From positions 1 to 38,382 of the forward strand of contig CANIZL010000063.1 of NCBI GenBank assembly GCA_947471985.1: DNA of 38,382 bases. The letters run 5' to 3'. A program made the position numbers and the translations under genes. The notes beneath the pieces are model-generated. The model worked only from the letters and a program-made list of their open reading frames with translations. It had not been told where the DNA came from and did no database searches. Below are positions 897-37,845 of the stretch, piece after piece. This stretch comes from Verrucomicrobiota bacterium (GTDB taxonomy: Bacteria; Verrucomicrobiota; Verrucomicrobiia; Limisphaerales; UBA9464). How positions within the stretch are numbered: the stretch's first letter is position 1; every line of letters starts with the position of its first letter.

Positions 897-2729
897 TCAG
901 TTTGGGCGGTCCGGGGTGACGGAGGACTTCGGGGGCGCACTCGAGGCGACCCAACGTTGATCCGTCAGCGTTCGCAGAAACGCCACCAGCGCTTTTTGAT
1001 CGCTCGGTGACAAGGGCACGCCGCCGTCGGGGTGTTTGGCCAGATTGGGATCCAACGTCGCACTGCGGGTGACGCCCGCGCAGTAGTGCCTCACGACGTC
1101 CGCCAACGTGGCCAGTCGGCCGTCGTGCATATAGGGCGCGGTGACCGCGATGTTGCGCAGTGAGGGAACGGCAAACCGGCCTTGATCCCCGACGCGGCCG
1201 GTCACGGCGCGACGGCCCGGATCGGCGCTCACGGCGTCGAGCCCGTTGTTGGCAAACCCCTGGCTTTGAAACAGCGGTCCGCCATGGCAGTGGAAACAAT
1301 CGGCGCCGTATTGTTCCCGGCGCGGATCGTACTCGGTGTGGAAAAGTTCCAAGCCGCGTTTTTCCTCGGCGGTTAATTCCGCCTGGCCGGCCTGGAAGCG
1401 ATCGAAGCGGGAATCATCGGAGGTGCGCGTCAGGAGGAATTGTTCCAGGGCGCGGGCGAGGCGATCCGCGGTGATTTCCGCGGTCCCAAAGGCGCGGGCG
1501 AAACGCGCGGTCAACGCGGGATCGGCTTTCAATCGGGCGACGACCGTGGGCAGCGCGGCGTGCATTTCGAGCGGATTCTGAATGGGCTGCAACACTTGCT
1601 CGCGGAGGGTCGAGGTGCGGCCGTCCCAGAAGTAGGACGTCTTCCAGGCGAGATTGAAGAGCGGTGGGGCGTTGCGGGCGCCCACCTGGCCTTCGGCTCC
1701 CAGGCTGAATCGCCGGTCTTCGGTGAACGCGCGTTCCTCCTGATGACACGAGGCGCAGGATTGCCGCTGATTGCCCGAGAGTCGGGTGTCCGAGAAGAGA
1801 TCGCGGCCCAGGGCGACGCCTTCCTCGGTCAGCGGATTATCGCGGGGCAGGGCGGGTTGCGGGAAGGAGCCGGGATAGGAAAAACGGTACGGCGTGGTGT
1901 TGCGGGCGATCTCCGTCCGCAGGGCTGTCGGGGCAGCGGGATTGGGCGCGGTGACGGAGCGGACGCTTTCGATGCTGAAGGCGGCTTCCACATTTTTCCG
2001 AAGTTGTGGCGCCAACGCGTCGTTGGTTCGCGAATGTGTGGAGATCGAGTCCGGGTTGAAGGATGCCAGCTGAGGCCCGGCAAGAATGCGGGCGACGTCC
2101 AATCCCAGGCGGATTTCGCCGTCGGTCGAGAGCTCCAGCGCCATCGGGAGTTCGACGGTCATCAGCATCGGATCGGTGGCGAGATGAAAGGAATAGCCGC
2201 GGACGTCGGCGGAAGTGGCCGCGGGAGTCGCGGTGTCGCGCCAATTTCCTTCCAAAGCGAGAAAGACGTAACCGCCCTGCCAATTCCAGTGCAGGCCATT
2301 GAGGTTGGGATTCAAGGGACTGCTGGCGGGGATGCCGGCCGGATGGGTGTGGTTTTCGGTCGGGGGCAGGCCGACGTGGAAGCGAATCCGGTCATACGCG
2401 CCGGAGGGAACTCCGCCGGTGGTGAAGCGGAGGCGATGCTCGCGGGCGCTGATATAGGCGTAACCTTCGGTGGGCACGACCCACTCCCCGTCGCGGCGCC
2501 GCAGGGCCGGGTGGGAGATTAGGAAATCCAGCCGCGTGACCGACCACGGCTGCCCGGCGGCGTTGGTCAGGACGAGGGCATCGAAGGTCAGCGGCGTGGC
2601 GTGGAAACGCGGCACGATTTGCCAGTCCAGACGGGATTCGCCGGCGCCGGCGCGGTTCACCCCGAGCAGCCCCGCCAGCGCGGCGAGCGCGGCGCGGGCG
2701 ATCGGGCGAAGCGAGGTGAAGCGCGACAT
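897..2729 (-). CDS. MbnP-like domain fused to di-heme cytochrome c peroxidase (MbnH/MauG type)
   Basis: An exported 610-residue protein with a signal peptide at about 1-30. Residues 35-260 resemble the MbnP family: a beta-rich domain with the hallmark HWNWQGGY segment (Trp148, Trp150) and His-rich ENHTHP at 125-130. Residues 295-595 are a cytochrome c peroxidase/MauG-type domain with two heme-binding sites, CASCH (325-329) and CFHCH (478-482), plus the APYMHDGR segment at 531-538 that surrounds a heme in this family. In known systems MbnP and MbnH are separate periplasmic proteins, and the di-heme MbnH oxidises a Trp of MbnP to kynurenine. Here both halves are one chain, so any such chemistry could be intramolecular (inference). 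It is last in a three-gene minus-strand cluster, 28 bp after the YHYH gene. No Shine-Dalgarno is evident before the ATG. A plain di-heme peroxidase with an unrelated N-terminal domain is the alternative. Confidence 0.88.
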   Translation of the reverse strand: MSRFTSLRPIARAALAALAGLLGVNRAGAGESRLDWQIVPRFHATPLTFDALVLTNAAGQPWSVTRLDFLISHPALRRRDGEWVVPTEGYAYISAREHRLRFTTGGVPSGAYDRIRFHVGLPPTENHTHPAGIPASSPLNPNLNGLHWNWQGGYVFLALEGNWRDTATPAATSADVRGYSFHLATDPMLMTVELPMALELSTDGEIRLGLDVARILAGPQLASFNPDSISTHSRTNDALAPQLRKNVEAAFSIESVRSVTAPNPAAPTALRTEIARNTTPYRFSYPGSFPQPALPRDNPLTEEGVALGRDLFSDTRLSGNQRQSCASCHQEERAFTEDRRFSLGAEGQVGARNAPPLFNLAWKTSYFWDGRTSTLREQVLQPIQNPLEMHAALPTVVARLKADPALTARFARAFGTAEITADRLARALEQFLLTRTSDDSRFDRFQAGQAELTAEEKRGLELFHTEYDPRREQYGADCFHCHGGPLFQSQGFANNGLDAVSADPGRRAVTGRVGDQGRFAVPSLRNIAVTAPYMHDGRLATLADVVRHYCAGVTRSATLDPNLAKHPDGGVPLSPSDQKALVAFLRTLTDQRWVASSAPPKSSVTPDRPN

Positions 2730-2757: not shown

Positions 2758-4542
2758 TTAGAGAATCGTGAAACCGTTGGCGAGCGTGAACGTCACGTTG
2801 CCCATGCCCGGGGGACCCGGGAACACCAAACTGACCGTGACAGGTCCCGTTGGGGCATTGGCGGGAATCGCAAAGCTCGCGGTGATGTTGTTGCCGTTGC
2901 GCGTGAGCTTGGTGCCGGGGAAGGCGCCCAGCGTGGCCGACGTGGGATTGACTCCGGCCGGGGGCGGTGGCGGTTGGGAATTGGCGGCCAGCATCAGGGT
3001 GACGATCACGCTCGTCCCGCGGTTTCCGCTGACCGGCGAGATGCCGGAAAGCGTCGGGCCACCGCCACCCGGGTCGCCGCCGGTTCCGCCGCCCGTGGTG
3101 GAATTCGTGACGGAATCGTGGTTGGCTACAGCGGTGCGCAGGATCCGGGCAAAGTTGGGATTACCCGCGCTGGTGTTGGTGGTGCCGGCGAGATTGCTCG
3201 TGGCGGTGACGGGCGCGCCTTGCGCGGACCAGGTGGTCAGGTTCGACGACGTCTCGACTTGATACGTTCCGCCTTCCACCGCGCTCCAGACCAGGGTGAC
3301 TTTGCCGCCGCTCACCTCTGGACTGGCCAGCTGTACCGGGGCCTGCGCACCGCCGGTGTAGTGGTTCGTCACGGTTTCGGTCAGGGTAGTGACCGGAGCC
3401 CCCGTCGGGTTGCCGTGGAACGCCCGGCCGATGTTATACGGAAACGTCGGCGTGCCGTCGTCCGCGATGCTCACGAAGTAGGCGTAAGTGCCCTGCGGGA
3501 ATTCCGGCGTGACGCAGAAGCGGCCGTTGTCCTCGTCGAGATCGAAATCGGTGCCGAGGTGTTGTCCGAAATCCCCGAGGTACGCGTTGTCCTCCATATA
3601 GCGTCCGAGCGGATACGAGGCGGAAACGGCCGGACCGGTGGCGTTTCCGGAATTGCCGTAGAGCCGGGTGGCCCACGCGGGGATCTGGGTGCGTCCGGTG
3701 GCGATTAGATTATCCGTGCCGTGTTGGCCGTTGCGCAGTTGATAGCCGGAAATCATCCGACGCAGCCCGCTCGCGGGATTCGTGGCGTTGGCGTAGCCGT
3801 AGGGACCGTAGACCGGAAACCCATCGCGGACCCAGCCGAGGATGGGGGAGTGTTTCTGCACGGGACCGGTGGACTCCGAGTACGTCCGGGTGTCGGCGTG
3901 GTAGTCCACGTGGTCCTGCAACAGGTAACGGAGCGCGACCGGATTCGCGTGGTAGTGATAGGTCCCGCTGTTTTCCTGATGCGCGTACGCGGGGTCGAAC
4001 GTTTTGCCTTCGTTGACGTAAGCTTCGCGGTTCCAATTGCCGGAGCCCTGCGTTTCGGTGCTGCCGTTCCAATAAAACGCGTCGCGGGAATCAAACATGG
4101 CCACGCCGTCCACAAAGTAACCGATGGATCCAAAACCGGTGAGGGTCTTGGAGGCGGGGACGGTGGGATGGCGGGGCAGGCGATAGAGCACGTGCTGGTT
4201 CGCGGGGAGATTGGGGAAGCCGACGGACCAGGGCCCCATGGTGTGGATACCCAGGCCGGTGGTGCGCAGGTAAACCCAGTCGGCGGAGGCGTTGATTTCC
4301 TGAACCCCGGAGTAGGCGGGGAGGGATTGGGTCTGGGACCCGTTGCTCCAGGTGGTGACCGCCGTGCCCGTCGATTGGGCGGCGGCGTTGAGGTAGACCC
4401 GGGCGTAGCGACCGGACGCCGACGTGAACCACGAATCCAATTGGGGATCGGCCGCGGTGGATCGCACCGCGGTGGCGGCGAGGCCCAGGACCAAGGTCGC
4501 GGAGAGTGTGCGAAGCGGGGATCGAACAGATTTCATCTTCAT
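2758..4542 (-). CDS. Exported YHYH-domain protein with C-terminal Ig/TIG-like domain
   Basis: A 594-residue protein with an N-terminal signal peptide (about 1-31). The central part (about 85-330) carries the motif that names the YHYH family, Tyr195-His-Tyr-His198, followed by LGWVRDGFPVYGPYGY at 235-250, also typical of the family. The biochemical function of YHYH proteins is not established; clustered His and Tyr would suit metal binding (inference). Residues 400-490 resemble a fibronectin-like adhesion module. After a Gly-rich linker near 485-495 the last 100 residues form a TIG-like beta domain. It lies between the CRTAC1 gene (89 bp upstream) and the MbnP-MbnH fusion (28 bp downstream), all on one strand, so an operon is likely. 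No membrane anchor or sorting tail is seen, which suggests a secreted or periplasmic product. Confidence 0.85.
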   Translation of the reverse strand: MKMKSVRSPLRTLSATLVLGLAATAVRSTAADPQLDSWFTSASGRYARVYLNAAAQSTGTAVTTWSNGSQTQSLPAYSGVQEINASADWVYLRTTGLGIHTMGPWSVGFPNLPANQHVLYRLPRHPTVPASKTLTGFGSIGYFVDGVAMFDSRDAFYWNGSTETQGSGNWNREAYVNEGKTFDPAYAHQENSGTYHYHANPVALRYLLQDHVDYHADTRTYSESTGPVQKHSPILGWVRDGFPVYGPYGYANATNPASGLRRMISGYQLRNGQHGTDNLIATGRTQIPAWATRLYGNSGNATGPAVSASYPLGRYMEDNAYLGDFGQHLGTDFDLDEDNGRFCVTPEFPQGTYAYFVSIADDGTPTFPYNIGRAFHGNPTGAPVTTLTETVTNHYTGGAQAPVQLASPEVSGGKVTLVWSAVEGGTYQVETSSNLTTWSAQGAPVTATSNLAGTTNTSAGNPNFARILRTAVANHDSVTNSTTGGGTGGDPGGGGPTLSGISPVSGNRGTSVIVTLMLAANSQPPPPPAGVNPTSATLGAFPGTKLTRNGNNITASFAIPANAPTGPVTVSLVFPGPPGMGNVTFTLANGFTIL

Positions 4543-4631: not shown

Positions 4632-6902
4632 TTATGGGTGGTGGTGAGGCGTACCTCCAGGGGCGTCGGGACCGGGCAGGGCGAATTTGGGGAGCGGCAC
4701 CCATTCCGGAGCCGGCGTCCCTTCGCGGAGGCGATAGAACTGATCCAATTGCAAACCGCTCACCTTTTGCACGGTGCCGCTGCCGGGCCAGCGGATCTCG
4801 ACTTCGCGGATTTCGGTGGCATCGCCCAGACCGATCTCTTGACGCAGCGGGTTGCCGCCGAAGCTCGCGCCGGTGGACACGGTGCGATGCACGGTCCGGA
4901 CGCCCGCCGGCCGGGCGACGGTGACTTTCAAGCGGGCGCCGATGGCCGAGCGGTTGGCTTTGACGCCGACGAGCTGCAGCTTGAGCCAGTGGTGGCCGTG
5001 ACCGGGGTTGGCGAAGAGGACGTTGGGATAAACATCGCCCGAGACGGCCCCACCCAGGTCCTCGAAAACATCCTGATCCCCGTCATTGTCGAGGTCGGCG
5101 AAGGAGACCCCGTGGCCTTTTTGCAGATGTCCGAAACCGCCGCTCGTGGTCACGTCCTGGAAGACTTTTCCTTCCGCATTTCGGAACATGCGATTGGGGA
5201 CCAGGGTCAGCAGGTCCGGATCACCGGTGCCCAGATAGAAATCCAGCCAGCCATCGTTATCGAGATCGCCGTAATTGCAGCCCATCGCGTGCAGGACGTG
5301 ATCCAATCCCATTTCGCGCGTAACGTCGGCAAACGTTCCGTCGCCGCGATTGTGGAAGAGTTTGGCCCGCTCCCCGTGATTCGGCAGCCCGAGGTAATCC
5401 GCGGCGATGTCCCCGACGTTATCAATCTTGTATCCGGCAACGAAGAGATCCTCCCAACCGTCGTTGTCGTAGTCAAAGAACCATGTGGGAAAGCTGTAGA
5501 TGGGCAGCGTGACTCCAGCGGCAGCGCCTACTTCGGTGAATTTCCAGTTGGTGCTCGACGACGACGCCCCCGGCTGGGGCCCGTCATTGCGAAAGAGCTG
5601 GTTGGGTTGGCCCAGCAGGGAAAGATAGAGATCCGGCCGGCCGTCGTTGTTGTAGTCCGCCATGGTCACTCCCTTGACGTAAGCCGACACCGCCAAGCCC
5701 GCGGCAGCCGCCATTTCGGTGAAGGTCCCGTTGCGGTTGTTGTGGAAAAGCTCGCACGGGTGAGGGGGTGAACCTTGGATGCTCTCGTTGCCCACAAACA
5801 GGTCCAGCCAACCATCGCCGTCGAAATCAAACCACACCGCAGTTTGAGTGGGATGAAACGAAAGGAGTCCGGCGGCCTCGGTGACGTCGTCAAAGGTCCC
5901 GTCGCCCCGGTTGCGCAGCAGGGAATTCGGATGCCGTCCCTGTTCCCGCATCCAGGCCCCGCGCAGCACGAGCACGTCCGGATGGCCATCGTTGTCGAAG
6001 TCCGCGCTGATCAGGTTCAATCCCCCGGTGAGTCCCACCAGACCGGCTTCGCGGGTGCGTTCGCTGAAAGTGCCGTCGCCGTTGTTGTGGTAAAAGTGCA
6101 TCTGATCCCGCAGACCGATGGAGGTCACCATCACGTCCAATCGATCATCGCCGTCGAAATCCTCCACCACGCTGCCGCCGGAGAGTTCGTTCACGGCGAG
6201 TCCCGCGCCCACGGCGACTTCGGGGAAGCGCTTGATATCGTAGCTGGACGCAAAGGTGGCGGGGGGAATCAGCCACGGTGTGGGCACGCCGGCGGGATAC
6301 TCGCCCACGGTCATGGCAGCGACATTGAGCAGCCAGCGGGCGGAGAGGTTGCCGGGGAACTCGTTCAGCAGATTCGTCAGCCCGCTCATGGCCTGGCGGG
6401 ACCCGTTTTGCCAGCGGTGGATGCCGCCGCCCTGAATCGGCAGGAGACAGGATTCACTGGTGTGATTGCTCAGGCAATTCAGCAGTTCGCCGTCGCGCAG
6501 ATGACAGAGGACCTGATTTAACAGCAGATTGATGCGGTTGGCTCCCTGCGCCGGGGTGCCGCGCTTTTGCAGGTCCTCGTCGACCTTCTGGAACAGCGTC
6601 AATGCCTCGGGGTTGTGGCCGGCTTTCAAAAGCTCGGAGGCGAGTTCAAAGCGCAGGCCGGTGGTGTCCGCCGTGGGCGGGCGGCTGGCGATGAATTTGC
6701 GGAGATCGCGGGCCCTTTCTTCGCTGAGAAAACGGTTCTGCACCGGGATCGCCTCCCGCGCCAGACGTTCCAGCAAGGTGGCCATCTGCAGGGTTCCCGG
6801 GGTTCGGGGATCGGAGGACGAAGGGGGCAGGCCGCCATCTGCTGCCTGAAGGGTCAGGAGCAGCAAAAAATAGATCAAGAATCTGCCGGCCGTCTGGGTC
6901 AT
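4632..6902 (-). CDS. CRTAC1-type FG-GAP/VCBS repeat protein with ASPIC/UnbV domain
   Basis: A 756-residue exported protein. I chose the ATG at 6902 because it opens a clear signal peptide (MTQTAGRFLIYFLLLLTLQA), whereas the 33 codons upstream in frame do not look coding; GGCGGA lies just upstream. Residues 60-215 are helical, TPR-like. Residues 240-617 hold repeated FG-GAP/VCBS blades with calcium-type loops such as DFDGDDRLD, DFDNDGHPD, DFDGDGWLD and DYNNDGRPD, which normally fold into a beta-propeller. Residues 647-725 match the ASPIC/UnbV domain. Proteins of this layout are extracellular; their substrates are mostly unknown. It is first in the cluster with the YHYH and MbnP-MbnH genes, so it may be a scaffold or binding partner for them (inference). 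It is divergent from the VKOR fusion gene, with 212 bp between starts. Confidence 0.88.
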   Translation of the reverse strand: MTQTAGRFLIYFLLLLTLQAADGGLPPSSSDPRTPGTLQMATLLERLAREAIPVQNRFLSEERARDLRKFIASRPPTADTTGLRFELASELLKAGHNPEALTLFQKVDEDLQKRGTPAQGANRINLLLNQVLCHLRDGELLNCLSNHTSESCLLPIQGGGIHRWQNGSRQAMSGLTNLLNEFPGNLSARWLLNVAAMTVGEYPAGVPTPWLIPPATFASSYDIKRFPEVAVGAGLAVNELSGGSVVEDFDGDDRLDVMVTSIGLRDQMHFYHNNGDGTFSERTREAGLVGLTGGLNLISADFDNDGHPDVLVLRGAWMREQGRHPNSLLRNRGDGTFDDVTEAAGLLSFHPTQTAVWFDFDGDGWLDLFVGNESIQGSPPHPCELFHNNRNGTFTEMAAAAGLAVSAYVKGVTMADYNNDGRPDLYLSLLGQPNQLFRNDGPQPGASSSSTNWKFTEVGAAAGVTLPIYSFPTWFFDYDNDGWEDLFVAGYKIDNVGDIAADYLGLPNHGERAKLFHNRGDGTFADVTREMGLDHVLHAMGCNYGDLDNDGWLDFYLGTGDPDLLTLVPNRMFRNAEGKVFQDVTTSGGFGHLQKGHGVSFADLDNDGDQDVFEDLGGAVSGDVYPNVLFANPGHGHHWLKLQLVGVKANRSAIGARLKVTVARPAGVRTVHRTVSTGASFGGNPLRQEIGLGDATEIREVEIRWPGSGTVQKVSGLQLDQFYRLREGTPAPEWVPLPKFALPGPDAPGGTPHHHP

Positions 6903-7114
6903 CCGTCCGCCATACGTCGGTCGTTGGTTGTTGAGTGCAAAAGTATGACGTGAAAAGTAGGCGGAAATGCGTGGGCTGCTGATTTGGAGCAGCGCTTTCA
7001 AAGGGAATCATCCGGCGCGTTGGTTTGGTCGCCGTAGACGGAGAAGCCGGGCGACGTTGAAGTCGCCGGACGATTTTGACGGGTGAACCGGGAACCGGCA
7101 GGTTTGCCGTAATC

Positions 7115-8536
7115 ATGAGTCGCAAAAGTTCCGCTGCTCCGGCCAATCAACCGACACCCAGGCCGGCTCCTGCCGCGGGCGGTTCTCTTCGCTGGGCGCG
7201 GTGGGCGTGGGCGGCGGCGTGCGGGGTGGCGCTTTATTTGAGTTACGTCTCCTTTGCCGGCGGCGGGGTGGCCGGGTGCGGCGCCGAGGGGGGCTGCAGC
7301 GAGGTGTTGAACAGCCGCTGGAGCAAATGGCTGGGCATTCCCGTCAGTCTGCCGGCCGCGGGTCTCTATTTGGCGTTGATTGGTTTGTCCTTTCCATCCG
7401 GGCGGCGGTCTGCGGTCAGTGGGCTGGGCTCGCCGGCGGGGTGGTTGCGGATCGGCGCCTGGACGGTGCTGGGATCGGCCGCGTGGTTTTTGTTTTTGTC
7501 GGCCTTCGTTCTGGGGAAGTTCTGTCCGTACTGCCTGACGGTGCATTTGCTGGGCTCGACGGGGGCGGTGCTGGCGCTGCGCGGATTGGCGGGTGGACCG
7601 GAATCCGTTCGTAAATCTTCCGGCACCCCGGCCGGTTGGGCCATCGCGGCGCCGTGGGCGTTGCTGCCGCTCGGATTGCTGATCGCGGGGCAGGTGGCCT
7701 TCGCGCCCAAGACGTTTAAAGTAACTTCCGTTCCGGCCGGGAACGCCGCGCCGGTCGCGAATCCCCCAGCGGTCAGCCCGGCGCCTGCTCCCGCGGTGCC
7801 GAGTGTGACTCCCCCGACTCCGCCGGTCGCGGCCACGCCGGTTCCGTCGGCTCCGTCGACGCCGCCGCTGACATCAACGGCCACCCCAACGCCAACGACC
7901 GCGGCGTCCCAGTCGGCCCTCCCAGCCCATGCCCGTTTCCTGGCGCTGCATGGTGGGAAGTTTCAGTTGGATGTCGATCAACTACCGATCCTCGGCTCTC
8001 CGGCGGCGGCCAAGGTGATGGTTTCCCAATTCGACTACACCTGTGAACATTGTCGCCGCAGCCATGGCCCGATCACGCAGGCGCGGCAGTATTTCTCGAA
8101 TGAGCTGGCCGTGATCAGCCTGCCGATGCCTCTCGACGGACGGTGCAATGAATGGATTCGCCGGGCCTCCGCCCACAACAACGGATGCCAGCTTGCCGCT
8201 CTGGCACTGGGGGTCTGGCGCGCGGATCGGACGAAGTTTCAGGAGTTCGATCACTGGATGATGACCGCCCCCGAGGCTTTGAAGGTTCCCGTTGCCCTGG
8301 CCCGCGCCCGCAGCTTGGTGGGTGAATCGGCCCTGGATCAGGCCATCGCCGACCCCTGGGTGGCCAACACCCTGCAGGTTTCCATCGCGCTGTACCGCGA
8401 AAACTGGCTGGCCATCAAGAATAGCTCGATGCCCATGCTGGTGGTGGGAACCAATATCATCAGTGGCACCGTCAGCTCTACTTCGGACCTGTATCGCCTG
8501 CTGGATGAGTCGATGGGATTGAAGCACACGCCGTAA
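7115..8536 (+). CDS. VKOR-thioredoxin fusion (disulfide bond formation)
   Basis: A 473-residue membrane protein joining a vitamin K epoxide reductase domain to a DsbA-like thioredoxin domain. The VKOR part (25-200) has about five hydrophobic helices, the loop cysteines Cys55 and Cys61, the family segment SRWSKWLGIPVS at 67-78 and the quinone-side active site CPYC (137-140). A Pro/Ala/Thr linker covers 205-270. The thioredoxin part (275-473) has CEHC at 310-313 and the cis-Pro loop at SSMP (437-440). Together these should oxidise cysteines of exported proteins and pass electrons to quinone. The ATG at 7115 replaces an in-frame TTG at 7076 that would add 13 non-family residues. It is divergent from a cluster containing a c-type cytochrome, whose maturation depends on thiol chemistry; a functional link is inference. 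Confidence 0.92.
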   Translation: MSRKSSAAPANQPTPRPAPAAGGSLRWARWAWAAACGVALYLSYVSFAGGGVAGCGAEGGCSEVLNSRWSKWLGIPVSLPAAGLYLALIGLSFPSGRRSAVSGLGSPAGWLRIGAWTVLGSAAWFLFLSAFVLGKFCPYCLTVHLLGSTGAVLALRGLAGGPESVRKSSGTPAGWAIAAPWALLPLGLLIAGQVAFAPKTFKVTSVPAGNAAPVANPPAVSPAPAPAVPSVTPPTPPVAATPVPSAPSTPPLTSTATPTPTTAASQSALPAHARFLALHGGKFQLDVDQLPILGSPAAAKVMVSQFDYTCEHCRRSHGPITQARQYFSNELAVISLPMPLDGRCNEWIRRASAHNNGCQLAALALGVWRADRTKFQEFDHWMMTAPEALKVPVALARARSLVGESALDQAIADPWVANTLQVSIALYRENWLAIKNSSMPMLVVGTNIISGTVSSTSDLYRLLDESMGLKHTP

Positions 8537-8597: not shown

Positions 8598-11500
8598 TCA
8601 GTGGATGCGTAATCGCACAAACCGCGGTGGGCGGTCGGCCGAAGTGCCGGGCCGGAGTCGGACGGTGAGTTCGGAACTGCCATCGGCATTCACGTGCGTC
8701 GAGAGGATTTCGGTGCCCGTCTCCGAGGCATCCCAATCCACCAGGTTTTCCGACACCTCGCGTTGCCAGAGCAGATCCGGAGCCTCGGTCCGGATTCGAT
8801 AGGTGAAATTCAAGGAGCCGTCTGACTGCAAACTCTGCGGCACGAGCCGGGCGGCATCGGCGATCAGGGGCGCCCGAACGAACGCGTACTCGGCGAAATT
8901 GCTCAGGCCATCGCCGTCCGGATCGACTCCTGGTACGGTGTCTTCGGGCGGCGTGTTGGCGCGGAATGCCGTGACCTTCCAGGCGGCATAACCCGCTTCG
9001 GGCCGGGCATTGGGCTGCCCCAGTGTTGGTTGCTGCAATAACGCCCAGCGGTCCTGTCCATCCGGCGTGCGACCGATGCTGCGGCCTTGCGGGGTGGCGC
9101 TGAAGTCGATTTCATCCGCAAAACGGAGCAGATTCCCTGCCGCATCGGCTTCAATCAGATGAACCTGGTCCCCGTCGCCGTTCAGCGCGAAGGGGATGAG
9201 GCAGTTGGGGTTGGCCGGGTTGTTGAAATCCGCTTCCCGCACGACCCGGCGGGAGCCCGGCGGCATCCCGGTGTCGGTCCCAAAGCGATATTTCCGGGGC
9301 GTTTTCAGACTGTCGCTCAGATACCAGCCGGTGATGGATTGGGGAACGGCGGAGGTATTCATGAGCTCGATCGCATCCGTCTCCTGCGCAGGCGAGGCAG
9401 CGTAAACCTCGTTGAGGAGCACTCCGTCGTTGGTCGTGGCGCCCTCCGCACCCGGCGAGCCATGAACCTGGCGACTGGCCCGCCAATGGCGTGCGTCACT
9501 GAGCCAGTTGGATTTTTCGGCGGCGGTGGTGGGCGCTTCCGGCGCTGGGGTTAGCTCCAGGGAACTACCCCATCCGTCCGCCCGTTCGGGCCAGGGAAAT
9601 ACCGTGCCGTAGGTGCAGGAAAACAGGAGGGTGCCCGCGGGCGCATTCACCTCCACGGTTTCACCACTGTTGGACAAGGAACCCTGCCACGGCCCCAGCA
9701 CGCGGATACCGCGGTGGTAATACGGCGAATTGGTGGCTTGATAAACCGTCGCAAAGAGGGCGGGATCCTTGGTGACCACCAATCGCTCCTGGAAGGCCAG
9801 CACCGTTCCCAGCGGAAAGACATATTGAAGGGCGTTGGTGAGGATCACCCCGGAGAGATCCAGCGAAGCGGGGGAACCATTGTAAAACTCCAGGAATTCC
9901 GGTCCCGCGTCGTCCCGTGCATGGTATTGAATTTCGGTCAACCACAGCCCGCCGGTCGAGGCCGGGGGGATGCCATCGGGAACGTAGGCCACGTCCACCA
10001 AGGCGGACCAATCCGCGGCGGCGAACACCCGGGCGCGGATTTGCCGCGGTTGATCCACCAGAAGCGCGCCCGCGGCGAGGGTGCGGGCGGTGGGATTGAT
10101 TTTGCCGCCGGAAAGCCGCGGATCCGAGCCGTCGGTGGTAAAGTAGATGACCCCGGTGGGACTGGTGATGCCGATGACGGATCCGCCGGGAACCCGACCG
10201 CCCGGGAGGGTGAAGGTGGGAGGTTCCACCGGCCACCAGCCCGAGTGTTTGCGGAGTTGGGCGATCAATCGTGTATGGCGCTGCGGGAAGAAGGTGTTGC
10301 GGAGGTAGTTCCATTCATTGAGCCATTCCTGATCGCGATCCCACGGCAGTTTGGCCACGCTGGTGCCGGGCTGCCAACGCGCGGTCTCGGCGACGATGGC
10401 ATTGGAAATCTCGCGCATCCGATCGTGGTACAGGCCGCCGGCCCGGGCGGGAGTCAGCGCGCCGTCGTTGAAGCAGTGGAGGTATGCCCGGTCGCGGAAC
10501 AGCACCCGGAAATCCGACTGCCTCATCAGCGCGGTGAAAATGCCGTCGGGCACATCCTGATCGGTGCAATCGGCCGCCACGTCCTGCAGCGCGACATCGG
10601 AATCCTGTTGAAAGAATTTCCAACCGCCCCGATCCGGCGCGCTTGGCCCGGCCGCCGCCCAATTGTGCTGGGCCGACCAGTCCCAATCATTCCCGGCGTA
10701 AAAACTCAACAGCATGTAATCACAGAGATTGGTGACATCGATCCACCGCCGGGCCTGCGTGTAGTTGTTGAGACTGCCTTTCAAGGCCTGCCACGGCTGG
10801 GTCCAGCTGTCGCCGCCCCCGTGATCGCTCCCGGTCGTGGCCCCACCGGTAAAATGATACCCACTCGCGCCGCCCGGATAGTAGCTCGCCAGGTAATCGT
10901 CGTCGGGATGCTCGTGGATGTGATAGATCCCGTGGTAGGCCCCGTTCAGATACAGGTGCACCTGACGTCCGTGTTTTCCGGGCTGACCCATCATCAATTG
11001 CATTTCATCGATCCACGGATTGCGCGCCAATTGGGCGTCGCCGCTGCGGGTGACGGGGGGATCTCCGTAGGGCACCGGGGGATTCTCCCGGGTGCCGAGC
11101 CAGAAGAACGTGTCGTGGGAATGGCTGCGCAGGCGGAGATTCTTGAATTGCGTGGCCGCGCCCTGGGGAAAGCGTGAGCCCTGGGCAAACAGCGGGTACT
11201 TCAATTCCGCCCGCCCGTATTCGCGTCGGAAGCTGGCGGCCATGCTCAGCTTGGGGGACGCCAGACTGGTGGTTCCGGTGGCCTCGATGCCGGCATCGAT
11301 TTGAAAGCCGGCTTCCCGATTTTCCGGATCAAAAAGCTCGATGGACGCGGGATTCTCCGTCGTGCCCAGGGTGCCCGTGAGGACCACGGACACGGCGGGC
11401 AGGGCGGTGAAGGCATCGGCCAGTACCGGCCCGTAGGCGGCGCTGCGGGTGATGGACGTCGCCAATTGGGATTGGTTGACCACGCCCTCGAGCAGCGGGT

Positions 11501-13517
11501 TGCCGACTCCATTGACGAAGAGATAGGTCTGGGTGGCGACCGGGGTGTACGCCGCGCCGCCTTGCAGGGCGATGGCGCGGACGATGCGGGTGCCGCGGGT
11601 CGTGCCGCTGGTATTGGGAGTTACGGTGAAGGGCCCGGTGTAGGTGGTGCCGTTGACTGCGCTCGGTACGGTGCCGTTGAGGGTGTACCGGATTACCGAG
11701 GACGGCACCGTGGCGCTGAGTTCCAGCGAAATCGCCGCCTGATAAAAACCGTGGGGCCGGCTGAACGTGACTTCGTTCTGACCGAGGGCGAAGGGCGCCG
11801 CGTTGCTCGCGCCCGGGGTGGGCTTGGTCAAATACGCCAGGGTTCGCGTACCGCCGGGATCAAGGGTGTAGCCATACGACACGCCGGGGTATTGCGTCGG
11901 TGGATCCAGGGCGCTGACGACGGAACTGCCGTCGGGCCGCACGAGGGCTAAAAATTCCCCGGTCGCAGCCAGCGAGAAATTCGCGTGCAGCAGCGGGGAG
12001 TCCGGTGGTGCCGTCCCGAGTCCGTCGGCCAGAACGGTGAGGAATCCGTTGGGCGCGATCCGGCTGGCGGGAAACGTCCACTTCGGCAAGTCGGACTTCG
12101 AGTCGGTGAGATGCCAGTTCGTAAGTTCGACCCACTGGGGCAGCTCGTTGTAAATCTCGATCCAATCCTGCGGCGCGCCGAACTCGTCCGGGAGGCCGCC
12201 CACGGTTCCGGACTGAAATTCGTTGAGCCGGAGTTGGTACTCGCTGACTGGCAATTCGAAGGTGGTTTCCCCGGACAAGCCGGCGAGGTCGGTGGCCCGG
12301 AGCCGGATTTTTGCGACCGATCCGACCGGTGGGGCAGGGCTCCGCAGGCGAAGCTCATTTCCCGTGATGGTGAACAGGGCGTTGTTTTCACCACCGGGGC
12401 CGTCCACCAACTGGAGCACATGCTGATCGAAGGCATCGGCATCCACGGCGGTGGCGTGAGCCACCAGCGCACCGGCGGTCGCGCCGCCCTCCACTCCCTG
12501 CGCATCGAGGGTGATCCGGGTCGGGGCGTGCGGGGCGGCAAGGGTCAGCGGAAACGTTTTTTCCAGCCAGCGATTGGTGTCGGCGCGATCGGTGGTTCGG
12601 ACGCGGACGGAAAACTGCGCGCCCGCGGGTTGAGTGGAGAAAACGAACGGGCGGGGGAACAACTCATTGCCCACCAGGGTGAACTTGGCGTTGTCCGTGT
12701 CGCCCGGGCCGGGAACCAGGGTGACTGCATGGGTGGCGTTGGACTTGCGATCCACGGTCCGCACGTGGCCGATCGCCGCGGTTTGCGTCGCGAAGAAAGC
12801 GCCGCCGCCGGGTTCCAGCACCAGATCGTCCGGCGTGGGCGGTACGGTGATTTTCTCCAGGGTGAGGGCCTGCCAGATGGGATTGCGATCGCCACCGTCC
12901 GTGGCCCCGAACAGGGTGCCCATTTCGACGATCACACTGGTGGTCGCCGCCACGAATTGATACGTGTACAACGTCGCCCGATTCGCGGCGTAGCGTTGTC
13001 CGGGCGAGACTCCGAGGGAGGTGATTTCATCGACGGCGTTGAGTCCGTTGACCCGGATATCCCAGCGTCGGTCTTCGACGACGTTGCCGGAGATGAGGAT
13101 TTGCAGTTTGTATTCGTTGCGGGCGACGACCTGCAGGGTTGCCCGGAGCCGTTCCCCTCCGGCGGTGTTGGCCCAACGGATATCCCGCAGAATTTCCTCC
13201 AATTGATTGGCATCGCTGCTGTTGCCGAACTCGGGTTTGGCCTGCCAGGGGGTGACGGATTGCGGTCCCACGAGCGTGGCTCCGGGAATGGGCAGTCGAT
13301 CCGGCGTAAAGCTGACCCCATGAACGACCCGGATGGGGTCGTCGGTGCTGAAATTGATGGCGTAGACGAATTCGCCATCGAGATCGAGATCCTGCGGGCC
13401 GGCGAGGGCGGAGACATTTCCCAGGAGAACCGCGGTGGCGGCCTGCATGCGAGGGGCGAACCCGAGCCATCCCCCAAGAGCCAGGCAGACTAGGAGCGCG
13501 AAACGAGGGCCTTTCAT
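8598..13517 (-). CDS. Giant exported lamin-tail / CotH-kinase / chitobiase-like protein
   Basis: A 1639-residue protein with a signal peptide at about 1-26. Order of parts: a beta-rich N-terminal region with two cadherin-like stretches (about 220-425); lamin-tail domain 1 near 428-530; a chitobiase/hexosaminidase C-terminal-like module near 590-670; a CotH-kinase domain near 740-1085, with VHLYLNGAYHGIYHIHE and the acidic QQDSDVAL segment expected to bind metal; a second chitobiase-like module near 1099-1165; lamin-tail domains 2 and 3 near 1180-1290 and 1362-1460; a calcium-type DPDGDGLSNFAEY loop near 1530; and a terminal beta domain. CotH proteins phosphorylate spore-coat proteins in Bacillus, but the role of these secreted multidomain relatives is unknown. 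No anchor is seen at the C-terminus. Start is ATG without a clear Shine-Dalgarno. The nearest same-strand gene (epimerase) is 133 bp upstream, so co-transcription is uncertain. Confidence 0.9.
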   Translation of the reverse strand: MKGPRFALLVCLALGGWLGFAPRMQAATAVLLGNVSALAGPQDLDLDGEFVYAINFSTDDPIRVVHGVSFTPDRLPIPGATLVGPQSVTPWQAKPEFGNSSDANQLEEILRDIRWANTAGGERLRATLQVVARNEYKLQILISGNVVEDRRWDIRVNGLNAVDEITSLGVSPGQRYAANRATLYTYQFVAATTSVIVEMGTLFGATDGGDRNPIWQALTLEKITVPPTPDDLVLEPGGGAFFATQTAAIGHVRTVDRKSNATHAVTLVPGPGDTDNAKFTLVGNELFPRPFVFSTQPAGAQFSVRVRTTDRADTNRWLEKTFPLTLAAPHAPTRITLDAQGVEGGATAGALVAHATAVDADAFDQHVLQLVDGPGGENNALFTITGNELRLRSPAPPVGSVAKIRLRATDLAGLSGETTFELPVSEYQLRLNEFQSGTVGGLPDEFGAPQDWIEIYNELPQWVELTNWHLTDSKSDLPKWTFPASRIAPNGFLTVLADGLGTAPPDSPLLHANFSLAATGEFLALVRPDGSSVVSALDPPTQYPGVSYGYTLDPGGTRTLAYLTKPTPGASNAAPFALGQNEVTFSRPHGFYQAAISLELSATVPSSVIRYTLNGTVPSAVNGTTYTGPFTVTPNTSGTTRGTRIVRAIALQGGAAYTPVATQTYLFVNGVGNPLLEGVVNQSQLATSITRSAAYGPVLADAFTALPAVSVVLTGTLGTTENPASIELFDPENREAGFQIDAGIEATGTTSLASPKLSMAASFRREYGRAELKYPLFAQGSRFPQGAATQFKNLRLRSHSHDTFFWLGTRENPPVPYGDPPVTRSGDAQLARNPWIDEMQLMMGQPGKHGRQVHLYLNGAYHGIYHIHEHPDDDYLASYYPGGASGYHFTGGATTGSDHGGGDSWTQPWQALKGSLNNYTQARRWIDVTNLCDYMLLSFYAGNDWDWSAQHNWAAAGPSAPDRGGWKFFQQDSDVALQDVAADCTDQDVPDGIFTALMRQSDFRVLFRDRAYLHCFNDGALTPARAGGLYHDRMREISNAIVAETARWQPGTSVAKLPWDRDQEWLNEWNYLRNTFFPQRHTRLIAQLRKHSGWWPVEPPTFTLPGGRVPGGSVIGITSPTGVIYFTTDGSDPRLSGGKINPTARTLAAGALLVDQPRQIRARVFAAADWSALVDVAYVPDGIPPASTGGLWLTEIQYHARDDAGPEFLEFYNGSPASLDLSGVILTNALQYVFPLGTVLAFQERLVVTKDPALFATVYQATNSPYYHRGIRVLGPWQGSLSNSGETVEVNAPAGTLLFSCTYGTVFPWPERADGWGSSLELTPAPEAPTTAAEKSNWLSDARHWRASRQVHGSPGAEGATTNDGVLLNEVYAASPAQETDAIELMNTSAVPQSITGWYLSDSLKTPRKYRFGTDTGMPPGSRRVVREADFNNPANPNCLIPFALNGDGDQVHLIEADAAGNLLRFADEIDFSATPQGRSIGRTPDGQDRWALLQQPTLGQPNARPEAGYAAWKVTAFRANTPPEDTVPGVDPDGDGLSNFAEYAFVRAPLIADAARLVPQSLQSDGSLNFTYRIRTEAPDLLWQREVSENLVDWDASETGTEILSTHVNADGSSELTVRLRPGTSADRPPRFVRLRIH

Positions 13518-33869: not shown

Positions 33870-34100
33870 AGCGGTGGGCTATATAAGAGCACAGTTCCGA
33901 ATTTTAGCGATTCCAATCGGCGGTCACTCCGGCCCGCTGCGATGGCCGACGGAGCGCTGATGGTGCCTCCGGTACCGGGCGAATTCGATCGCCCCTCCAA
34001 GGAATGTATGACTCCCGGCAAGATGCGGGCGGCGACAACCCGTGCCGGAGTATAGGGTCGAAGTAATCGGTGAACGGGCCCAATTCACGTTCATCAAGGC

Positions 34101-34106
34101 GAAGGA
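34101..34106 (+). promoter_or_regulatory. Ribosome binding site that fixes the cytochrome start
   Basis: GAAGGA lies 7 nt before the ATG at 34114 and fixes the start there. The in-frame ATG at 34042 has no such site and would place 24 uncharged-to-basic residues before the signal peptide. Confidence 0.7.
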
Positions 34107-34113
34107 AACGACT

Positions 34114-37100
34114 ATGAAGATACGTGCATTTTTGAAGCAGATCGGGGCGTTCTGGCTGGGCATCCTCTGTTACTGCGGCCTTCCGATCCATGCTGCCTCC
34201 GCACCGGCGGTTTTGCTCGGATGGAACAATTTGGGCATGCATTGCATGGACTCCAGCTACGCGGAGTTTTCCATCCTGCCGCCCTACAACACCATTGAGG
34301 CCCAGCTGATCGTTGGGGGCAAATTGGTGACGGCGGGGGGTGGATACACGATGACGTACGAAGCCGTGGCTGACCCGGACGGATCCATCAATTCCTTCTC
34401 GGTGGGCAAAGGCAATTGGGCCGATTTCGCTCCGGTAATTTTTGGCGTGGCCGTGCCGTATTCGGCCGACCAGGGGCTCGCGGGTTGGAACATGCCGGGG
34501 CTGCTCAACACCCCGCAGCCGCTGCATTTCGAAGCCAACAATGTGCCCGCCGCCGGGGCCTCGGCCTTGGTGAACTGGTTCCGGGCCGAGGGCATCCCCA
34601 TCACCCCATACGATGATGCTGGTCACAAGAATCCCTATCCGCTGATGCGTTTGGTGGCCCGGGATGCGGCGAACAAGGTGGTGGCCCAGAGCGACATTGT
34701 GCTCCCGGTGTCAGACGAGATGGATTGCCGCGTCTGCCACGGTGCGAACACCCAGTCCGCCGCGATGCCGGCGGGCGGTTGGACCTTGGATGCGAACAAG
34801 GATCGGGAACAACGCCTTAACATCCTGCGGGTTCACGACGATCGGGAATTTGCCAATCACCAGGATCTCTATGTCGAGGCGCTGGCGGCCAAGGGCTTTG
34901 CGCCGGCCGGGCTCTACGCCACGACGATGAGCGGCAAACCCATGCTCTGTGCGGCCTGCCATGCTTCCGAAGCGTTGGGTGCGCCCAGTTTCACCAGTGC
35001 CAAGGGCCTCGGAACCGTGCCGCCACTGACCGCATCCATGCACAGCAAACACGCGGATGTGGCGGACCCCGTACTCAATCTGACCTTGAATCATTCCGAC
35101 AACCGGGCCAGCTGCTACCGCTGTCACCCGGGCTCGGCCACGCGGTGCTTGCGGGGCGCCATGGGCAGTGCGGTGGCGGCGGACGGGAGCATGGCCATGC
35201 AATGTCAAAGTTGTCACGGCACCATGAGCCAGGTGGGATCCAGTCAACGGGTGGGCTGGTTCATGGAACCCAATTGCCAGAGCTGCCATACGGGACCGGC
35301 CAATCACAATAACGGTCAAATTCGTTATCAATCGGTGTTTGATGGCACGGGCAAGGAGCGCGTACCCGTGGATCCGTTGTTCGCCACCACGCCCAATACC
35401 CCGGCGGCCGGGATCTCCTTGTACCGGTTCTCGTCGGGGCATGGTGGGTTGCAATGCTCTGCCTGCCACGGTTCCACGCACGCGGAGTTTCCGGCTGCGC
35501 ATCGCAACGACAACATCCGCAACGTGCAAATGCAGGGACACGCCGGTGTCACGGTGGAGTGCGTGGCCTGTCACACCACCATGCCCACCTCTGCGAATGG
35601 CGGACCGCATGGACTCCACCCGATCGGGCAGGCTTGGGTCAACGATCATCATGACGCGATCAGCCAGGTCGGTTTGGCGTCCTGCCAGGCCTGTCACGGC
35701 ACGGACAATCGGGGAACCGTGTTGTCCCGCGTGCAAGCCGACCGCTCCTTCCGGGCGGGTGACTCCGGTACCCAAGCGTTTTATCGAGGCGCGACGGTCG
35801 GTTGTTACACCTGCCACCAGGGTCCGTCCAGCAGTTCGATGAACACCGACCTGCCGCCGGCGATTGCCGATGTCTCAGCCACCACCGTGGCGGGGGTGCC
35901 GGTGGATATGGTGTTGCCCGTAGGAAATGCGACAGCTGTCCTCCGCATTCTCAGTCAGCCCGCGAACGGATCCGTGGGGCTGAGCAATAATGTGGCCACG
36001 TATTTTCCCGCCGAGAGTTTCACGGGAACGGAAACGTTTACCTTTGCGGCCTACGATGGGGCCAGGAATTCCCGCGTGGCGACGGGGACCGTCACGGTGG
36101 GTCCCAACTCCGGCGGCTGGCTGGCTCCGCAGATCAGCGGGGATCCGGTCTCGCAGACGGTGATCGCGGGAGGTGGAGCGACCTTCTCGGTGGTCGCCAG
36201 TGGCGGTACCCTCACGTATCAATGGTCCAAGGAAGGGTGGCCGATTTCGGGAGCCGTGGATGCCGTGTTGAACTTGCCGGCCGTGAGTCCGGCCGACGCC
36301 GGCAGCTATCGGGCGCTTGTTCGGAACCAAGGCGGTGCCACGGCCAGTGCAGCCGCCACCTTGACGGTGCTGATACCCGTGACCGTGACCACCCAGCCCG
36401 TCAGTCAGACGGTGCTCGCCGGAACCACGGTTCAATTCAACGTGGCGGCGACCGGTTCGACACCGCTGACGTTTCAATGGAGCAAGAACGGTGCGCCCAT
36501 CAACGGCGCGACAGGCAATTTCCTCCGACTCTCCAATGTCAGTCTTAATGCCGCGGGAGAGTACCGCGTTCGGGTCACCAATCCCGCCGGGGGAGTGGAC
36601 AGTGACGTCGCCGTGCTGATCGTGCAGGCGCCTCCGACGATCAGTCGGCAACCCGTCAGTCAGACTGTTATTCAAGGGACCACAGTGACGCTGAGCGTGA
36701 CTGCTACGGCGTTTCCGGTGCCCACCTATCAATGGTATAAGGATTCCATCGCCATACCCGGAGCGACGGCGACGGCGGTGACTTTCCCCAGTGTTGCCCT
36801 TGCCGACGCCGGCGCCTTCATGGTGGTCGTGAGCAACCCGCTGGGTACAGCCAACAGTTCGACGGCGACCCTGACGGTGAAACTTCCCACTCCGGTCATC
36901 ACGGGCTTCAGTCCGGGATCCGGAACGGTGGGTTCCCTGGTCACCTTGACAGGGTCCGGTTTTGCGGGAGCCACGGCGGTGAAATTCAATGGGGTCAGTG
37001 CCGCCAGCTATATCGTGGGGTCTGCTACTCAGATCACGGTGACGGTTCCCGCGGGAGCTACTACGGGACGAATCACGGTGACGACACCGGGAGGCACGGC

Positions 37101-37845
37101 CACCAGTGGCAGCAACTTCACGGTCTACCCGGTTCCCACGATCAGTAGTTTCAGTCCGGGGGCGGGTTCAGTGGGCTCTCGGGTGACGCTCTACGGCAGT
37201 GGATTTTCTGCCGGGGCGGCGGTTACGTTCAATGGCATTGCGGCCAGCAGTGTCAGTTGGCTATCCGCCACCCAATTGTCGGCGATCGTGCCGTCGGCGG
37301 CCACCACGGGGCCGATCCAGGTTACGACACCGGGTGGCTCTGCGGTCTCCGGCGTCTTTCGAGTCACTCCGAACATCAGTGGTTTCGCCCCGGGATCCGG
37401 GCGGGTGGGCACGGCGGTGACGGTCGCCGGCACGGGCTTCACTGGGGCGACGGCGGTGGCCTTTAACGGCAAGGCAGCAGCCTTCACGGTGATCTCTCCG
37501 ACGACGCTTATCACCGGGGTTCCGGTCGGAGCGACGTTGGGTCGGATCACGGTAACCACCCCGGGCGGCACGGCCACCAGCGGATCGAATTTTGCGCCGA
37601 GCGCCCTGTTGGTGGCTCCGGTCATTACGACGCGGAGTCCGAGCAGCGGACCGGCTGGCACCAAGGTGACCGTCAACGGTGCCAATGTGGGTGCGGCAAC
37701 GGCGGTAAAAGTTGGGGCCGTTTCTGCCAGCTTCACGGTGATTTCCGCTAATCAAATTCAGGTCACGGTCCTGAACAGTGGCGCTATCTCGGTCACCACG
37801 CCGGGCGGAGTGGCGACCTCGGTTGGTGCATTTACGGTCCTATAA
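34114..37845 (+). CDS. Nonaheme c-type cytochrome with Ig-like and IPT/TIG domains
   Basis: A 1243-residue exported cytochrome. The signal peptide covers about 1-27. A conserved N-terminal segment, LGWNNLGMHCMDSSYAEF, opens the cytochrome part. Nine CxxCH heme sites start at Cys205, 279, 334, 364, 388, 448, 483, 524 and 564. After these come a cadherin-like module (about 579-665), three Ig-like domains (669-922) and four IPT/TIG domains (926-1243). No anchor or sorting tail is visible. The heme part could carry electrons across or outside the cell surface; the beta domains would give reach or binding. That role is inference from architecture. It is divergent from the DUF4380 lipoprotein and ends in a strong terminator, so it is probably a single-gene transcript. 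Heme attachment would need a cytochrome c maturation system not present here. Confidence 0.9.
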   Translation: MKIRAFLKQIGAFWLGILCYCGLPIHAASAPAVLLGWNNLGMHCMDSSYAEFSILPPYNTIEAQLIVGGKLVTAGGGYTMTYEAVADPDGSINSFSVGKGNWADFAPVIFGVAVPYSADQGLAGWNMPGLLNTPQPLHFEANNVPAAGASALVNWFRAEGIPITPYDDAGHKNPYPLMRLVARDAANKVVAQSDIVLPVSDEMDCRVCHGANTQSAAMPAGGWTLDANKDREQRLNILRVHDDREFANHQDLYVEALAAKGFAPAGLYATTMSGKPMLCAACHASEALGAPSFTSAKGLGTVPPLTASMHSKHADVADPVLNLTLNHSDNRASCYRCHPGSATRCLRGAMGSAVAADGSMAMQCQSCHGTMSQVGSSQRVGWFMEPNCQSCHTGPANHNNGQIRYQSVFDGTGKERVPVDPLFATTPNTPAAGISLYRFSSGHGGLQCSACHGSTHAEFPAAHRNDNIRNVQMQGHAGVTVECVACHTTMPTSANGGPHGLHPIGQAWVNDHHDAISQVGLASCQACHGTDNRGTVLSRVQADRSFRAGDSGTQAFYRGATVGCYTCHQGPSSSSMNTDLPPAIADVSATTVAGVPVDMVLPVGNATAVLRILSQPANGSVGLSNNVATYFPAESFTGTETFTFAAYDGARNSRVATGTVTVGPNSGGWLAPQISGDPVSQTVIAGGGATFSVVASGGTLTYQWSKEGWPISGAVDAVLNLPAVSPADAGSYRALVRNQGGATASAAATLTVLIPVTVTTQPVSQTVLAGTTVQFNVAATGSTPLTFQWSKNGAPINGATGNFLRLSNVSLNAAGEYRVRVTNPAGGVDSDVAVLIVQAPPTISRQPVSQTVIQGTTVTLSVTATAFPVPTYQWYKDSIAIPGATATAVTFPSVALADAGAFMVVVSNPLGTANSSTATLTVKLPTPVITGFSPGSGTVGSLVTLTGSGFAGATAVKFNGVSAASYIVGSATQITVTVPAGATTGRITVTTPGGTATSGSNFTVYPVPTISSFSPGAGSVGSRVTLYGSGFSAGAAVTFNGIAASSVSWLSATQLSAIVPSAATTGPIQVTTPGGSAVSGVFRVTPNISGFAPGSGRVGTAVTVAGTGFTGATAVAFNGKAAAFTVISPTTLITGVPVGATLGRITVTTPGGTATSGSNFAPSALLVAPVITTRSPSSGPAGTKVTVNGANVGAATAVKVGAVSASFTVISANQIQVTVLNSGAISVTTPGGVATSVGAFTVL

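Follow-up and report, generated by a model that had tools for sequence, protein, structure and literature searches.

The window, by which we mean the whole stretch of 38,382 nucleotides analysed here (contig CANIZL010000063.1 of a Verrucomicrobiota bacterium), contains one gene in which a domain of the MbnP type, the presumed substrate, is followed by a di-heme domain of the MbnH type, the presumed enzyme. The coordinates of the original prediction for this gene, 897-2729, are correct and its strand is minus; both domains lie in one 610-aa ORF, and not in the separate chains of a two-protein pair. The features of the fusion gene and of its upstream neighbour are the following:

897..2729, minus strand: MbnP-MbnH fusion gene, a single ORF of 610 aa
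2643..2729, minus strand: likely Sec signal peptide, residues ~1-29, read by eye from a hydrophobic N-terminal stretch, with a helix at 9-26 in the model
2061..2618, minus strand: MbnP domain (PF20243), residues 38-223, by Pfam; the match to the MbnP fold spans 30-262
2286..2288, minus strand: W148, first Trp of the WxW motif and candidate kynurenine precursor, by conservation and alignment with the WxW of solved MbnP
2184..2186, minus strand: H182, candidate copper ligand, by conservation and alignment with a His of 7l6g
2034..2036, minus strand: H232, candidate second copper ligand, by conservation
1839..1955, minus strand: linker between the halves, residues 259-297 (28-51 residues long across 40 aligned fusions)
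942..1832, minus strand: di-heme MbnH/MauG domain, residues 300-596, by profiles and by sequence and fold matches
1743..1757, minus strand: first heme motif CASCH, residues 325-329, with invariant Cys, Cys and His
1626..1628, minus strand: W368, Trp of an FWDG stretch and likely inter-heme Trp, kept in 48/48 fused and 53/82 separate domains
1284..1298, minus strand: second heme motif CFHCH, residues 478-482, with invariant Cys, Cys and His
1083..1085, minus strand: Y549, likely MauG-type Tyr axial heme ligand, kept in 46/48 fused (2 gaps) and 80/82 separate domains
2758..4542, minus strand: YHYH-family protein of 594 aa, part of the module, directly upstream of the fusion with a 28-base gap (PF14240, E 1.9e-40)

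That the N-terminal half is MbnP and the C-terminal half a di-heme protein of the MbnH/MauG type, as originally predicted, was confirmed by Pfam profiles and by folds. In the profile search that had been proposed as a check, both halves scored above the Pfam cut-offs, MbnP (PF20243) at residues 38-223 with 99.1 bits (cut-off 27, E 3.8e-28) and CCP_MauG at residues 303-450 with 185.2 bits (cut-off 25.6). The NCBIfam model of MbnH (TIGR04039) ranks top for the C-terminal half (5.7e-68) and matches 40/40 fusions of our alignment A1, a count that is not independent of fusion status since its 40 members were chosen as intact fusions (in L056 the ORF begins only within the MbnP domain, with a stop further up in its frame). 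Its 229 bits in the window lie below the curated cut-off of 362.85, and the 45 bits of MbnP_like_WxW (TIGR04052; 6.4e-12) in the N-terminal half lie below the curated cut-off of 140. Scores under these NCBI equivalog cut-offs for MbnP and MbnH weaken the explanation that we favour below; two separate Bacteroidota pairs that were tested (L053 and L138) also fall under the curated cut-offs of TIGR04039 and TIGR04052.

The structure of the fusion, predicted from 40 aligned fusions (pLDDT 86.3, pTM 0.85), agrees with the profiles. Model residues 30-262 align to the solved MbnP 7l6g (Z 17.9, rmsd 3.2, 213 residues aligned), the next structural rows for this half reaching only Z 5.1, and residues 280-596 align to the solved MbnH 6e1c with Z 30.5, which makes 6e1c the best solved structure for the C-terminal half by sequence as well as by fold.

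Both heme motifs named in the original prediction, CASCH and CFHCH, are present, and the Cys, Cys and His of each CxxCH never vary among 48 fused and 82 separate rows, the latter including second di-heme copies (another residue count left out the partial fusions L034, L047, L048, L052 and L063 and the copies L001, L010, L014 and L022). Among the Trp residues of this half, W362 is kept in 48/48 fused and 37/82 separate rows, and W368 is taken here to correspond to Trp93 of MauG; similarly, we equate Y549 with Tyr294 of MauG, an axial heme ligand. Bacterial cytochrome c peroxidases have a Met ligand at the second heme, and in L002, an ordinary peroxidase encoded by this genome, the residue equivalent to Y549 is Met. 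With Tyr at this position the fusion lacks the Met ligand of the peroxidases, and it combines two CxxCH motifs with a Tyr at the MauG-type axial position, as is characteristic of MbnH.

The N-terminal half possesses the WxW motif and the conserved His that characterize MbnP (W148, W150 and H182). The segment HWNWQGGY occupies residues 147-154, which confirms the numbering of the two Trp residues between which the original prediction had left the choice of target. W148 is kept in 50/50 fused and 43/45 separate MbnP domains (2 gaps), W150 in 49/50 fused domains and in 42/43 of the separate ones that have a letter there, H182 in 49/50 and 43/45, and H232 in 48/50 and 36/45, copies L001, L010, L014 and L022 having been dropped before this count. 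In the fusion L093 the motif appears as MAWPP, MAWPP and MGWPS in the three MbnP domains, all of which retain the first Trp and have lost the second. Work by Manesis from 2021 reportedly identified the first Trp of WxW as the kynurenine precursor in the MbnP of Methylosinus trichosporium OB3b, with which the retention of only the first Trp in L093 agrees. Of the two candidates W148 is accordingly the better one, W150 being slightly less conserved and lost in L093. The residues preceding the motif are distributed differently in the two groups: position 146 is Leu in 46/50 fusions and Met in 38/45 separate MbnPs, and position 147 is His in 48/50 fused and 29/45 separate domains. The copper site of the fusions may differ, because the Met two residues before the Trp is replaced by Leu in most of them. 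Together with a kynurenine, H182 and H232 would by analogy resemble the copper ligand set of CorA, in which copper is held by two His and kynurenine (PMC3912023, excerpt).

The original prediction named a Trp far from both hemes in a confident model as something that would refute it. Of the 50 structural alignment rows, 20, all of them from the cytochrome c peroxidase family, start on the model side at one of residues 147-150, matched to the beginning of the aligned peroxidase chain; MauG and MbnH rows start at 280-301, and the row of one peroxidase, 3o5c, starts at 288. The pattern hints at contact between the WxW loop and the di-heme domain in the predicted model, but amounts neither to a distance nor to proof. 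Nearness of the Trp to a heme would not be decisive in any case, because MauG oxidizes its Trp substrates via long-range electron transfer (PMC6405878, excerpt).

In the 40 aligned fusions, the highest mean hydrophobicity over 15 residues within the first 95 residues has a median of 1.95 (range 1.35-2.59), and the corresponding value for the linker a median of 0.6 (range -0.9 to 1.83), the two ranges overlapping at their ends. These values suggest that the fusion is exported as one chain, one likely signal being present at the N-terminus and no clear second one in the linker. Attachment of c-type heme occurs outside the cytoplasm, and separate export of the di-heme half is therefore hardly possible.

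The fusion is not peculiar to the genome of the window but is the pattern throughout our sample of its phylum. PF20243 was found in 16/288 genomes of this phylum at 21 places, which represent 20 genes (two places belong to one frame-split gene), and 18 of these 20 are intact fusions with a di-heme domain, several of them in single-contig genomes. The remaining two are a frame-split MbnP-MbnH fusion (G108) and a gene in G121 (L121:7731-11546) whose MbnP and di-heme pieces are set apart by transposase-like ORFs. A similar picture emerges from public genomes: among the best 80 of 558 relatives, a single ORF encodes both domains in 32 loci, L050 is truncated by the end of its contig, MbnP and di-heme domains lie in separate ORFs in 42 loci, and 5 have a di-heme domain only. 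The titles of 30 of the 33 fused or contig-edge loci in this set name Verrucomicrobiota, the three exceptions being L046 (Sphaerotilus), L056 (Proteobacteria; both are MAGs) and L093 (Spirochaeta).

Samples of three other phyla, each including its centring genome, which was already known to have MbnP, contain almost exclusively separate genes. In Bacteroidota, the phylum of L081 (Dyadobacter), MbnP occurs in 39/148 genomes, none of its 54 places is in a frame of more than 352 residues, and the MbnP and di-heme genes are separate neighbours in the 29 loci that were read (of 30). In Bacteroidota loci such as L059-L061 and L064-L084, two di-heme genes in tandem often come after MbnP, and they fall in separate clades of the tree described below. 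In the phylum of L046, MbnP is present in 9/249 genomes, and only L046's own gene is fused, the other 8 loci being separate. In that of L093 it is present in 56/188 genomes, with L093's own gene as the sole fusion found; four long MbnP frames considered as further fusions proved to be separate ORFs, and the remaining frames, of up to 440 residues, are too short for both domains.

In a tree of 90 di-heme domains, 47 of the 48 fusions group with two rows labelled separate in one clade of 49 rows (SH-aLRT 99); the tree was built quickly and without bootstrap, from every second separate row (41/82 kept) and without L052, which is too short. Of the two separate rows, one is L063, which is frame-split, and the other is L050, which lies at a contig edge. 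L046 and L056 fall inside the Verrucomicrobiota fusion clade, a placement that may reflect either transfer or misbinning. The fusion left outside is L093 (L093:6240-9746), a protein of 1168 aa with three MbnP domains before one di-heme (MauG) domain, which is a second, independent fusion. On the tree as drawn the fused/separate label requires at least 4 changes, with L063, L050 and L093 among the causes. Within the phylum of the window the fusion probably arose once, from an ancestral gene pair in which MbnP was followed by MbnH.

The genes next to the fusions are recurrent as well. We surveyed the neighbours of 49 fused loci with profiles built in this analysis, omitting L063 and L115 (frame-split), L121 (broken by transposase-like ORFs), L050 (contig edge) and the short copies L001 and L003-L023, for which longer loci supplied the genes. 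In 33/49 fusions, that of the window included, a YHYH-family gene is no more than 1.2 kb away; it is upstream and shares the strand of the fusion in 30 of these 33, and is within 28 bases or overlapping in 17. The exceptions are L041, with the YHYH gene on the other strand, and L040 and L111, with the gene downstream. The association extends to gene content: PF14240 was found in 30/288 genomes of the phylum, comprising all 16 MbnP genomes and 14 without MbnP (hypergeometric 2e-18, a value that ignores the kinship of the genomes), and some of the 16 have a PF14240 gene elsewhere in the genome. No YHYH gene was detected in flanks of up to 8 kb in 47 unfused loci among the best 80 of 558 relatives, and separate genes have one alongside in 3 of the 29 Bacteroidota loci (L150, L154 and L157, with short flanks). 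Four His residues of the YHYH family (H188, H196, H198 and H231) are invariant in 17 aligned members and look like a metal site. The YHYH domain, called enigmatic in 2021, is in print a predicted Zn2+-dependent hydrolase, on account of three His residues and one Asp (PMC7824862, excerpt). A structure prediction for the YHYH protein was set aside (pLDDT 47.7).

A second kind of neighbour, a galactose-oxidase-like copper radical oxidase gene, is found within 300 bases of 10/49 fusions. In Verrucomicrobiota this partner is a protein of ~2,300-3,000 residues with a Kelch propeller and a galactose-oxidase E-set, to which are added lectin-like or other domains and a region of CCP_MauG/RoxA type that contains two CxxCH motifs. 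Such giant proteins are encoded directly downstream of the fusion in L036 (9596-17581), L039, L105, L113 and L117-L120, as well as in L050 and L063, two loci outside the survey of 49 (Pfam was run on L036, L050, L105 and L119, the others being assigned by motifs). The copper radical oxidase sites Cys, Tyr, Tyr-His and His, the roles of which we assume to be those of galactose oxidase, are present in 6/6 aligned proteins, with somewhat variable surrounding letters; one of the six is the 828-residue oxidase-like neighbour of L093, whose gene lies on the strand opposite to the fusion. The fusion stop overlaps the next start by four bases in L105, L113, L117, L119, L120, L036 and L039, and by one base in L118. 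Among the 288 genomes PF09118 occurs at 6 places, and 6/6 are in the gene directly downstream of a fusion; the genome of the window has no PF09118 match. Genomes G240 and G215 each have one fusion of each kind, YHYH-linked and oxidase-linked. The partner links are not universal, because 6/49 fusions have neither gene nearby (L027 and L047 lie at contig ends), and neither YHYH nor oxidase was found near MbnP in 20 extended loci of L093's phylum, in which a di-heme gene is beside MbnP in 16 and MbnP stands alone in 4.

Two further genes of the window, an FG-GAP/ASPIC gene (4632-7001) and an LTD/CotH gene (8598-13517), were considered as parts of the module and rejected, neither having a match at E 1e-5 in 103 loci. 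The latter (minus strand) encodes a 1639-aa protein with Lamin Tail, CotH kinase and Fn3-associated domains. Elsewhere in the window, a 486-aa ORF (7076-8536, plus strand) has a VKOR domain followed by a thioredoxin/DsbA-like stretch recognized by eye, and a 1267-aa ORF (34042-37845, plus strand) has Ig domains and a Cytochrome_C7 match and possibly encodes a secreted cytochrome.

The reading that we favour, and to which we give an even chance, is that of a single-chain copper protein which carries its own maturase and serves a protein encoded by a neighbouring gene. Both halves would be exported as one chain by means of the single N-terminal signal, and the C-terminal half would bind two c-type hemes in the manner of MauG and MbnH, with Y549 and W368. 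Given H2O2 or another oxidant, W148 would then be turned into kynurenine by the di-heme half, in the same chain or in a neighbouring copy, a step that we infer because the MbnP/MbnH pair of M. trichosporium performs it. Kynurenine 148 and H182, probably joined by H232, would hold Cu(I), and the copper would be passed to, or used with, the protein of the neighbouring gene, the YHYH protein here and the copper radical oxidase elsewhere. For the window this hand-over, which is read from gene order, is the weakest step, and a copper client is disfavoured because the YHYH domain is predicted to be zinc-dependent (PMC7824862, excerpt).

Several other readings compete with this one. The Trp could be oxidized in trans, for instance within a dimer, the fusion merely equalizing the amounts of enzyme and substrate; the ancestral pair does react between two proteins, but the WxW loop seems in the model to be packed on the di-heme domain of its own chain, and we regard this alternative as possible though doubtful. 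It is less likely still, and on the whole unlikely, that the di-heme half modifies the neighbour, be it YHYH or oxidase, instead of W148, while the MbnP half docks or delivers copper. The tight linkage of the partner genes, with a four-base stop/start overlap in 7/10 oxidase loci, speaks for such a role; however, fusions and separate MbnPs conserve W148 and H182 equally well, and a shared self-directed reaction accounts better for partners of two unrelated kinds. 

A bolder version of our favoured reading, which we would rate slightly lower again, makes the fusion a dedicated, self-activating copper chaperone for the neighbouring secreted metalloprotein, building its kynurenine-Cu(I) site and loading the partner. 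If so, H2O2 made by the oxidase would mature more chaperone in the oxidase-linked lineages, and the YHYH protein would, by analogy, be a copper protein served likewise. More improbable than these is a protein that mainly removes H2O2, for example that of the neighbouring copper oxidase, with MbnP as a copper or electron relay. The second half does have the fold of bacterial di-heme peroxidases, copper radical oxidases release H2O2, and such a role has been proposed for DtpA (PMC4736821, excerpt), but residue 549 of the fusion is Tyr and its counterpart in L002, the genome's ordinary peroxidase, is Met, and PF09118 has no match in that genome. A sequencing or assembly artefact, finally, has a negligible chance in view of the 18 intact fusions of the phylum sample, several of which sit in one-contig genomes.

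Among known systems, the closest to the fusion is the MbnP/MbnH pair of M. trichosporium OB3b (7l6g and 6e1c), with which it shares both folds, the WxW motif, the aligned His and the di-heme residues. It differs from this pair in forming one chain and not two, in having Leu-His before the Trp where OB3b MbnP has Met-Ala, and in its neighbour genes. A search for MbnB (TIGR04159) in the 96% complete assembly of the window's genome gave no match, the control search matching only below the cut-off. PF02461, used to look for a methane/ammonia monooxygenase, matched neither this genome nor the controls and thus carries no information. The broader use of the pair that the original prediction envisaged is borne out in so far as it occurs outside methanobactin producers, but this is not new, the presence of the pair far beyond such producers having been stated in 2013 (PMC3621798, excerpt). 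What is new in this analysis are the recurrent partners, YHYH and the copper radical oxidase. In open-licence PubMed Central articles, which constitute a weak test, we found neither the fusion nor its partners in print, and domain libraries may already list the MbnP-MbnH architecture.

The proteins of the GlxA/Sco/DtpA system of Streptomyces lividans are presumably unrelated to the fusion. The logic is nevertheless the same with other parts, as GlxA depends on a copper chaperone and on a heme peroxidase for its maturation when copper is low (PMC4736821, excerpt); the likeness concerns the oxidase-linked fusions only and not that of the window. The neighbours name testable clients, the YHYH family and a copper radical oxidase that was found in the sampled phylum only beside the fusion. 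MauG (3l4m, with pre-methylamine dehydrogenase) resembles the C-terminal half in its di-heme fold (Z 26.8) and, we assume, in the Tyr at the axial position. Like the activity proposed here, that of MauG is directed at a Trp of a protein, but its substrate is a separate protein without any fusion, and the single-chain form offers a one-to-one system in which to study the di-heme oxidation of Trp. CorA/CorB and MopE of methanotrophs have a Cu(I) site of kynurenine and two His, such as we propose for the fusion, with an adjoining di-heme peroxidase gene, whereas theirs are separate proteins (PMC3912023, excerpt); the fusion bears on the role of such kynurenine-copper pairs outside methane oxidizers.
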